Origin: Alistipes indistinctus YIT 12060
GTDB taxonomy: Bacteria > Bacteroidota > Bacteroidia > Bacteroidales > Rikenellaceae
Length of the DNA stretch: 64,000 nucleotides
Direction: 5' to 3'
Assembly (NCBI RefSeq): GCF_025144995.1
Contig: NZ_CP102250.1
Span: 992,001 to 1,056,000 of the forward strand
Shown piece after piece: positions 55,820 to 58,335 of this stretch (positions within the stretch are counted from its first letter, which is position 1; the number at the start of each line of letters is the position of its first letter). The position numbers were made by a program, and so were the translations under genes. A model generated the notes under the pieces. That model saw nothing but the letters and a program-made list of their open reading frames with translations, was not told the DNA's origin and ran no database searches.

Positions 55820-56013
55820 ATTCGGTAAAATAATTTACTCTTCTGTACAAGCCTGTCGTTCGGGTGTGCCCCGACATTCAACCCTCCCGCCTTCGCCGGT
55901 CCCGGTATTTTGCCCTGCGCCTGAAATATTCCGTTCCCAACCGATAACTAAACTACAATTTTTTATTGAAACAACCGCATAAAACAACTACATTATGGAA
56001 TAACGACACAATA

Positions 56014-56050
56014 CAGTAAAGCCCGGATGAAAATCATCCGGGCTTTACTG
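56014..56050 (-). terminator. Terminator of greA
   Basis: CAGTAAAGCCCGGATGA and TCATCCGGGCTTTACTG form a perfect 17-bp stem with an AAA loop, 29 bases past the greA stop. The interval 55820-56013 shows no gene. Confidence 0.8.
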
Positions 56051-56078
56051 CAATACCGTTAACCGCCAACGGCCGACG

Positions 56079-56564
56079 TTACATATCCGCGACCGCGATA
56101 TCGAGAATTTCGAAGGGAATCATCCCCGAAGGAACCTGGACGTCGACCTTGTCGCCTTTTTTGTGGCCGAGCAGCGCCTGGGCGATCGGCGTACCGATCG
56201 CGAGCTTGCCCTCTTTGAGGTTCGCTTCGCTCTCGGAAACAAGCGTATACTCGACGGTTTTGCCGGTTTTCATATTCTTGAGCGTGACACGGTTCAGGAT
56301 TTGTACGGAGCTGGTGTCAATGCGCGACTCATCGAGTACCCGGGCATTGGCCACCATCTCCTCGAGTTTGGCGATACGCATCTCGAGCATCCCCTGGGCC
56401 TCTTTGGCCGCATCGTACTCCGCATTCTCGGACAGGTCGCCCTTGTCACGAGCCTCCGCAATCGCAGCCGAAATGGCAGGACGCTCCACAGAGCGCAGGT
56501 GCTCCAACTCGCTCTTGATTTTTTGCAAGCCGGCTTCTGTCAAATGAACTACTTTTGATGCCAT
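56079..56564 (-). CDS. greA: Transcription elongation factor GreA
   Basis: RNA-polymerase cleavage factor of 161 residues that rescues backtracked complexes. The N-terminal coiled coil carries ARDKGDLSENAEYDAAKEAQ, with the acidic tip residues Asp and Glu that enter the secondary channel, and the C-terminal FKBP-like domain has GKLAIGTPIAQALLGHKKGD. ATG 56564 (MASKVVHLTEAGLQ) is certain; the extension to 56672 runs across the leader hairpin. The leader contains a terminator-like structure, described separately. Confidence 0.96.
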   Translation of the reverse strand: MASKVVHLTEAGLQKIKSELEHLRSVERPAISAAIAEARDKGDLSENAEYDAAKEAQGMLEMRIAKLEEMVANARVLDESRIDTSSVQILNRVTLKNMKTGKTVEYTLVSESEANLKEGKLAIGTPIAQALLGHKKGDKVDVQVPSGMIPFEILDIAVADM

Positions 56565-56617
56565 AGTGAAGAGATATTTAAATAGGTAAAATAAAACGCA
56601 AAAAAAGAAAAAATCCC

Positions 56618-56641
56618 GACTCCCCGCCTGAGAGGGGAGCC
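56618..56641 (-). promoter_or_regulatory. Terminator-like hairpin in the greA leader
   Basis: On the minus strand GGCTCCCC pairs with GGGGAGTC (one G-U) around TCTCAGGC, then GGGA and a T-rich tract at 56613-56601 (TTTTTTCTTTTTTT). It lies between the likely promoter and the greA ATG, 54 bases before the ATG. It could act as an attenuator or release a short leader RNA. Confidence 0.6.
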
Positions 56642-56659
56642 AGAACTCTTCCGATAAGG

Positions 56660-56691
56660 CAAACTTAAACATTTAATTTCGATTTTCCAAC
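56660..56691 (-). promoter_or_regulatory. Candidate greA promoter
   Basis: On the minus strand GTTG (56691-56688), a 20-base spacer and TAAGTTTG (56667-56660). Start near 56653 places the leader hairpin about 12 bases downstream. Confidence 0.6.
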
Positions 56692-56794
56692 TCCCCTCAT
56701 TTTTTCGAAAAATAATTCTCCTCCTTTCCCCATTGCCATCGTGGCATCAGCCTCTGGGAATGGTCCCCTTCGCAAAATAGTTGGCACAGGAAAT

Positions 56795-56826
56795 GTTGAC
56801 TATATCGCCGGGGTTTATTATCTTTG
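56795..56826 (+). promoter_or_regulatory. Promoter of cls
   Basis: GTTG at 56795-56798, a 20-base spacer and TATCTTTG at 56819-56826. Start near 56833 gives a leader of about 27 bases before ATG 56860, and excludes the upstream TTG at 56824. Confidence 0.65.
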
Positions 56827-56859: not shown

Positions 56860-58335
56860 ATGCAGCAAACCGTCATCCTCACCCTCCTCGACCTGATCAG
56901 CCTGAAAGGCATTTTTAGTTTCGGCTACGTGCTTTTCGTGCTCATCACCATCGGCGTAATCATTCACGACAAACGCGACCCGGTCAAAGCACTCTCGTGG
57001 ATCGTCGTGCTGATCCTGCTGCCCGTCGCGGGTTTCCTGCTCTATATCGTTTTCGGACGCAACCACCGCAAGGAGAAGCTGTTCAACCGCAAAGAGCTGC
57101 ACGACCTGGAACAGATCGACGAGATGAGCCGCGAGCAGGTCTACGCGATCAACAACGCGGCGTTGCTGCTGCGCAGCGAAATCACCGAAAACCGCGACAT
57201 CATCACGCTGTTGCTCAACAGCAACAAAGCCCTGCTGACCAACCACAACCGCATCCGCGTACTGAACAACGGCACCGTTACCTTCGACGAGATCAAAGCA
57301 GCCCTGCGCGGCGCCCGTTCGTCGATCCACCTTGAATATTATATTATCGAAGACGATCCGCTGGGCCGGGAGATCGCGGAGATCCTGATCGGGAAAGCCC
57401 GGGAAGGGGTCGAAGTGCGCCTGATTTACGACGACGTAGGCAGCTGGGGCCTGAGCAGGCGCTATATCCGACACCTGCGCAATGCGGGCGTGGAAGTGCA
57501 ATGCTTTATGCGCGTCGTTTTCCCGTGGCTGACCAGCAAAGTCAACTACCGCAACCACCGCAAAATTCTGGTCGTAGACGGCCACATCGGCTTTACGGGC
57601 GGCATCAACATCGCCCAGCGCTACCTGACCGGCACGAAGATGGGCCCGTGGCGCGACACGCACCTCAAACTCGAAGGCGAAGCGGTACGGATGCTGCAGA
57701 TCGTTTTTATGACCGACTGGTACTTCGTCAGCAAACAGCAGCTTACCGACCACGCCAAATACCTGCCCCCGACGACGGTTCGCGACGAATGCCTCGTCCA
57801 GATCGCCACTTCGGGCCCCGATTCGGACTGGGCCTCTATCATGCAGGCTTTTTTCGCCGCCATCACGCGCGCCCAGCACCACATCTATATATCATCGCCC
57901 TACTTCACCCCGAACGAGGCAGTGCTGACGGCGATCAAAGTGGCAGCCCTCAGCGGTATCGACGTACGGATCATGATCCCGAGCCGTTCGGACTCCAAAA
58001 TCGTCTACTGGGCATCCCGTTCGTATATCGGGGAACTGATCGACGCAAACGTGAAAGTATACCTCTACCGGAAGGGATTCAACCACTCAAAACTGATCAT
58101 GATCGACGGAGTGTTCGCATCGGTGGGTACGGCCAATATGGATATGCGCAGTTTCGAAGACAATTTCGAGGTGTCGGCCATCATCTACGACCGCCGCATC
58201 ACCGAAGAGCTGGAGGAACAATTCCTCGAAGACCTTTCGCGTTGCCGGCTCGTCACGCGCGAGTATTGGGAAACGCGCCCGGTCCTGCACAACATTTACG
58301 AAGCCGTGGCCCGGTTGTTCAGTCCGTTGCTTTAA
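56860..58335 (+). CDS. cls: Cardiolipin synthase
   Basis: Membrane phospholipase-D family enzyme of 491 residues that joins two phosphatidylglycerols, or a related pair, to make cardiolipin. Two N-terminal spans (about 15-65, FGYVLFVLITIGVIIHD and LSWIVVLILLPVAGFLLYIVFG) precede two PLD domains with complete HKD motifs: NHRKILVVDGHIGFTGG (about 232) and NHSKLIMIDGVFASVGTANMD (about 408). It is monocistronic, preceded by its own promoter. After its stop, 323 bases (58336-58658) hold no gene I can recognise and no clear terminator. Confidence 0.96.
   Translation: MQQTVILTLLDLISLKGIFSFGYVLFVLITIGVIIHDKRDPVKALSWIVVLILLPVAGFLLYIVFGRNHRKEKLFNRKELHDLEQIDEMSREQVYAINNAALLLRSEITENRDIITLLLNSNKALLTNHNRIRVLNNGTVTFDEIKAALRGARSSIHLEYYIIEDDPLGREIAEILIGKAREGVEVRLIYDDVGSWGLSRRYIRHLRNAGVEVQCFMRVVFPWLTSKVNYRNHRKILVVDGHIGFTGGINIAQRYLTGTKMGPWRDTHLKLEGEAVRMLQIVFMTDWYFVSKQQLTDHAKYLPPTTVRDECLVQIATSGPDSDWASIMQAFFAAITRAQHHIYISSPYFTPNEAVLTAIKVAALSGIDVRIMIPSRSDSKIVYWASRSYIGELIDANVKVYLYRKGFNHSKLIMIDGVFASVGTANMDMRSFEDNFEVSAIIYDRRITEELEEQFLEDLSRCRLVTREYWETRPVLHNIYEAVARLFSPLL

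Follow-up and report, generated by a model that had tools for sequence, protein, structure and literature searches.

A promoter-proximal, terminator-like hairpin in the greA leader of Alistipes indistinctus and its recurrence in Bacteroidota

The greA locus and its leader

GreA is a factor that rescues stalled or backtracked RNA polymerase. The control of its level is best understood in Escherichia coli, and incompletely even there. We analyzed the greA locus of Alistipes indistinctus YIT 12060 in a stretch of 64,000 nucleotides (the window, to which all coordinates refer). The predicted product of 161 amino acids scores 179 bits against the greA model TIGR01462 (cut-off 139), the start codon is the ATG at 56564 on the reverse strand, and the neighboring upstream gene is transcribed divergently. 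The features of the locus are as follows.

56012–56052, reverse strand: terminator-like hairpin 3' of greA
56079–56564, reverse strand: greA, transcription elongation factor GreA, 161 amino acids and stop (NCBIfam and Pfam matches)
56565–56599, reverse strand: A/T-rich spacer from the T tract to greA, lacking a Shine-Dalgarno-like motif
56600–56613, reverse strand: T tract TTTTTTCTTTTTTT, overlapping the lower stem; predicted 3' end of the leader RNA
56607–56652, reverse strand: leader hairpin of 19 pairs, including a GC-rich eight-pair stem at 56641–56618 (folding; match to covariance model R2)
56655, reverse strand: predicted transcription start, an A, 5 nt past the -7 box (box position and purine preference)
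56660–56667, reverse strand: -7 box TAAGTTTG, fitting TAnnTTTG
56688–56690, reverse strand: -33 element TTG of a Bacteroidota primary-sigma promoter (exact TTG-N20-TAnnTTTG match)
56796–56826, forward strand: promoter of the cardiolipin synthase gene, TTG-N20-TATCTTTG (consensus match)
56860–58335, forward strand: divergent neighbor, cardiolipin synthase (TIGR04265)

The greA promoter (TTG-N20-TAAGTTTG, 56690–56660, reverse strand) fits the consensus for the primary sigma factor of Bacteroidota exactly; the available part of PMC7366714 gives this consensus as TTG or TTTG near -33 and TAnnTTTG at -7. Five exact TTG-N20-TAnnTTTG matches are present in the window compared to 0.4 expected from shuffling. 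With spacers of 18–22 nt seven such promoters are found, and the one of greA alone has a strong and compact hairpin after it; the hairpins after two others are long and weak (-13.6 and -8.7 kcal/mol). From the position of the box we infer that transcription of greA starts at A56655. An open frame of 197 amino acids that contains greA runs from the ATG at 56672 to 56079 on the same strand. Since this ATG lies upstream of the -7 box, the start of the longer frame falls outside the predicted transcript, and it is probably not transcribed. The stretch between the two divergent promoters (56697–56800) is richer in GC. It was considered as a second RNA and dropped, having no match in eight congeners and a fold z-score of +0.91.

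A first-pass annotation had described an eight-pair hairpin followed by a T-rich tract between the promoter and the ATG of greA. Both were confirmed, and the hairpin proved to be longer: A-U and G-U pairs extend the eight-pair core to 19 pairs (56652–56607), beginning 7 nt past the -7 box. In its lower half the stem includes part of the T tract as a pairing partner. The tract ends 36 nt upstream of the start codon of greA, and another T-rich stretch follows at 56596–56588 on the same strand. A GC-rich hairpin with a T tract directly after it is the sequence criterion for an intrinsic terminator, and the greA leader has both in this order. The best hairpin plus T tract past the box has a folding energy of -28.2 kcal/mol, and none of 300 shuffled sequences was as stable (shuffle minimum -19.3). 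The fold of the leader as a whole has a z-score of -3.97 (0/200 shuffles as stable). R2 matches the window at 56651–56598 with 38.4 bits, on the greA strand only. Neither the minimum-energy nor the centroid fold of 56660–56563 contains an antiterminator; both consist of the hairpin and a two-pair closing helix only. Counted from the predicted start at A56655 to the T tract, a released leader RNA would be about 50–60 nt long, in agreement with the roughly 50 bases estimated in the first-pass annotation. The hairpin is not the terminator of the upstream gene, since the cardiolipin synthase gene is divergent and has its own promoter.

Bacteroidota are said to make little use of Shine-Dalgarno sites. 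A Shine-Dalgarno-like GGAGG or AGGAG was observed before greA in 17 of 80 loci (L031–L110) and in 6 of 138 leaders sampled across the class, and before 1 of 186 other ORFs of the same 80 loci, the starts of which were not curated.

Conservation and covariation of the leader hairpin

Conservation of the hairpin in close relatives, with compensatory changes in the stem, had been set beforehand as a test, and the hairpin withstood it. R2 found it upstream of greA in all nine congeneric genomes, in eight of them with 37–48 bits and in G004 (locus L007) with 25.3 bits; the covariation, described below, was found in the main form of the leader. In five of the nine congeners (L002, L003, L004, L007, and L008) an ORF of 62–64 codons encoding a hydrophobic protein lies between the hairpin and greA. 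A first impression that these five had lost the hairpin was rejected, as R2 finds it farther upstream, before the small ORF, at 239–260 nt from greA in four and at about 370 nt in L007, where the match is weak (25.3 bits). In L002, L003, L004, and L008 the box still accompanies the hairpin, ahead of both the small ORF and greA; in L007 no exact TAnnTTTG box was found in 420 nt of sequence. The small ORF is conserved in the five congeners, with a product that begins MKPKTRF, and its proteins gave no family match over the cut-off.

In a draw of 200 genomes from the family, searched with stricter filters meant for large sets, R2 gave a match at E ≤ 0.01 in 146. Among the matches listed, 79 score at least 39.4 bits, and the position of greA was available for 69 of these. 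All but one (G014:C10) of the 69 sit 3–260 nt upstream of greA on the same strand.

greA was present in all 139 genomes of a class-wide draw, and the leaders of 138 were analyzed (G000 was left out). A TAnnTTTG box was found in 99 of the 138, and in 87 of these 99 a hairpin with a T tract follows the box, compared to 58 of 990 (5.9%) when the leader sequence past the box was shuffled. Allowing looser boxes, the order box, hairpin, T tract is found in 102 of 138 leaders. In a count of 102 leaders, the box precedes the hairpin by 1–49 nt (median 15) in 93. When the box was ignored, a hairpin with a T tract no more than 160 nt from the start codon was present in 121 of 138 leaders and missing from 17. 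Twelve of the 99 boxed leaders failed the hairpin test. In four of the leaders that fail one or the other of these tests (L241, L253, L258, and L261) a hairpin is visible by eye and the tail is poor in T. Measured without any T requirement in 90 class leaders, the frequency of T falls from 0.78–0.87 at the two positions directly past the core stem to 0.21 at position 16. Between families the sequence of the hairpin turns over, and hairpin and T tract remain at the same place.

Seven class leaders (L240, L243, L246, L272, L274, L275, and L278) have no recognizable hairpin with T tract before greA. In some of them the upstream coding sequence seems to reach greA, and the genome of L278 is 0.5 Mb in size.

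The arrangement also recurs in the rest of the phylum, where a hairpin with T tract was found in 38 of 40 leaders (sampled from 46 listed), counted there without a control set from these genomes. Some of these hairpins may belong to the preceding gene, since in one large group they lie about 80 nt from the start.

The stem was analyzed in an alignment (A1) that began with 110 leaders. The 3'-arm test was passed by 86, manual removal of 11 that were near-identical, off-motif or mis-anchored left 75, and nine similar or odd rows (L027, L030, L031, L032, L039, L051, L071, L097, and L101) were left out of the final 66, which represent the main form. In these, 94.4% of 887 cells are paired and 9 of 14 pairs have changed on both sides, counts that lean towards structure because the rows were selected for the motif. 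Double changes occupy 91 cells of the stem compared to 22.7 in shuffles, and pairing falls to 64% when the partner is shifted by one column. The arms of the main form read GRGUUCY and RGRAUUCUU, separated by 7–24 nt; positions T7, G36, T39, and T40 of A1 are invariant, and the stem sequence is kept across Bacteroidales and Flavobacteriales. Pair 6 is G-U in 59 of 66 leaders and A-U in 7, and never G-C. The stem sequence of the main form is thus more constrained than a terminator requires, which hints at a second constraint.

Association of the hairpin with greA

Specificity was assessed in the 80 loci L031–L110 together with the window, in which all ORFs of 90 or more codons preceded by a gap of at least 60 nt were scored alike. 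As the loci had been chosen by GreA similarity, this set samples Bacteroidota unevenly. It contained 71 greA genes, 61 of them with a box, and the hairpin was present in 55 of these 61; among 182 other genes 75 had a box, and the hairpin was present in one of the 75. Ignoring the box, greA carried the hairpin in 13 of 17 cases with a divergent upstream gene compared to 14 of 94 for other genes, and in 43 of 55 cases compared to 30 of 87 where the upstream gene is not divergent.

Both stem arms are present in 24 of 182 sites where a hairpin with a T tract follows a gene, and on inspection all 24 proved to be the greA leader viewed from the upstream gene. R2 also matches places other than greA in other genomes of the class, with 33–43 bits and some on both strands.

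Proposed function and relation to known greA leaders

We propose that RNA polymerase starts at about 56655, would form the hairpin within the first ~45 nt and would then reach the T tract, where a fraction of the polymerases would release the leader RNA of about 50–60 nt and the remainder would read through to give greA mRNA. The element would act as a constitutive partial terminator, with read-through depending on the elongation complex. With transcription beginning at the predicted site, about 3 nt would precede the hairpin, too few for an antiterminator upstream of it, and the proportion of polymerases that read through is therefore most likely determined by the elongation complex itself. 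Since GreA acts on that complex, feedback by the level of GreA, as described for GraL of E. coli, would be the likeliest purpose. We infer premature termination, RNA release and autoregulation from the anatomy of the leader and from the work on E. coli in the available part of PMC6829880. Taken as a whole, a promoter-proximal intrinsic terminator that releases such an RNA, with GreA feedback as its likeliest purpose, is the reading that we hold with reasonable confidence. Of its parts, termination by the leader element is very probable from this anatomy and release of a detectable leader RNA is likely, while feedback of GreA on the terminator is a tentative possibility.

A hairpin at the 5' end might instead shield the greA mRNA from 5'-end-dependent decay, with a T tract that is incidental or provides a ribosome standby site. 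In many genomes the hairpin does lie within a few nt of the predicted start (the gaps of 1–49 nt given above), but the run of T keeps to the end of the hairpin and fades within 16 nt, whereas the distance to the ATG varies, and the tails stay terminator-like where the stem sequence changes. We therefore regard protection from decay as improbable. The stem sequence kept across Bacteroidales and Flavobacteriales, together with the almost fixed G-U pair, would suit a site recognized by a protein or by an RNA acting in trans, be it on the mRNA or on a released leader, with termination secondary. Many families of the class, however, have hairpins unrelated in sequence at the same place, so that no single stem sequence is needed class-wide, and this account of the stem is quite improbable.

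It is very improbable that the hairpin serves the preceding gene as an ordinary terminator and that the true greA promoter lies downstream of it. The upstream ORF is codirectional in 55 of 72 greA cases, but the neighbor is divergent in the window and 13 of 17 divergent cases still carry the hairpin; moreover, of 102 leaders 93 have TAnnTTTG upstream of the hairpin and only 7 have it between the hairpin and the start codon. An inverted repeat directly downstream of a promoter could also be a DNA operator for a repressor beside the start site, which we find hardly credible given that the arms lie anywhere from 7 to 24 nt apart and that the halves pair as RNA, with G-U pairs, and not as a DNA palindrome. 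The combined evidence fits a terminator on the greA transcript better than a stabilizer, an operator or an upstream-gene terminator.

The first-pass annotation had likened the arrangement to that of E. coli. The likeness holds for the layout, as promoter, short leader, hairpin and T run were also seen on inspection of the E. coli sequence, but not for kinship in sequence to GraL: in the region of E. coli greA (NC_000913.3, 3325000–3329500), R2 matched nothing at E values up to 10. GraL (Potrykus 2010, as cited in the available parts of PMC6829880 and PMC2965389) depends on an intrinsic terminator in the greA 5' UTR, between promoter and start codon, which is also the place of the putative terminator of Alistipes. 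According to the part of PMC6829880 at hand, about two thirds of E. coli transcripts end in the leader, as RNAs of 49–59 and 37–47 nt, and about one third pass the terminator; the 3' ends are imprecise, termination in cis is GreA-dependent, and autoregulation requires the leader and catalytically active GreA, by a route still unknown. The size predicted here from sequence for the Alistipes RNA, about 50–60 nt, resembles the 49–59 nt of GraL, whereas the hairpin would begin at about +4 compared to +19 in GraL. Premature terminators before greA have also been described by Naville and Gautheret (2010) as greA- and rnk-leaders in Proteobacteria, Bacilli and Clostridia (PMC2965389, as far as available). 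The leaders in the available part of that paper each have a clear antiterminator; the Alistipes leader is predicted to fold into a single hairpin, with about 3 nt before it when counted from the predicted start.

The word "Bacteroid" is absent from the PMC2965389 text, and no report of an attenuator in a Bacteroidota greA leader was found in the main texts of open papers. Lists of structured leaders from the Flavobacterium psychrophilum and Bacteroides thetaiotaomicron transcriptomes (PMC9723704, PMC7366714, and PMC10994844, each available in part) may hold the greA leader, and the portion covered of a microbiome-wide RNA prediction (PMC8040213) does not name it. Rfam contains structured RNA motifs of the same phylum, some of them in leaders, such as Bacteroidales-1, Bacteroid-trp and 6S-flavo (PMC2864571), none of which matches the greA leader. 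No Rfam 15 family exceeded its gathering cut-off at the leader in the window, and a search of ten loci at E values up to 5 gave nothing at the hairpin on the strand of the leader. Since there is no Rfam match and no Bacteroidota report was found, we judge the leader to be a new form of the known greA attenuators. As judged by sequence, what is new is the putative terminator that has the place and layout of GraL, a different sequence and no antiterminator, in most sampled Bacteroidota greA leaders.

A more far-reaching version of the proposal is that the leader terminator of the whole phylum senses GreA activity directly, without antiterminator, sRNA cofactor or ligand, is tuned by the elongation complex and arose independently of GraL, that such terminators form a GreA homeostat across phyla, and that the ~50 nt RNA has a second job in trans in Bacteroidales and Flavobacteriales. 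As a whole this is speculative and rather unlikely.

Bacteroidota also gain a leader-RNA family that is absent from Rfam, together with a working covariance model. A putative terminator that is present in most Bacteroidota greA leaders, differs from GraL in sequence and has no antiterminator points to a repeated origin of the same control, and makes the question of GreA control testable in a genetically tractable gut bacterium.
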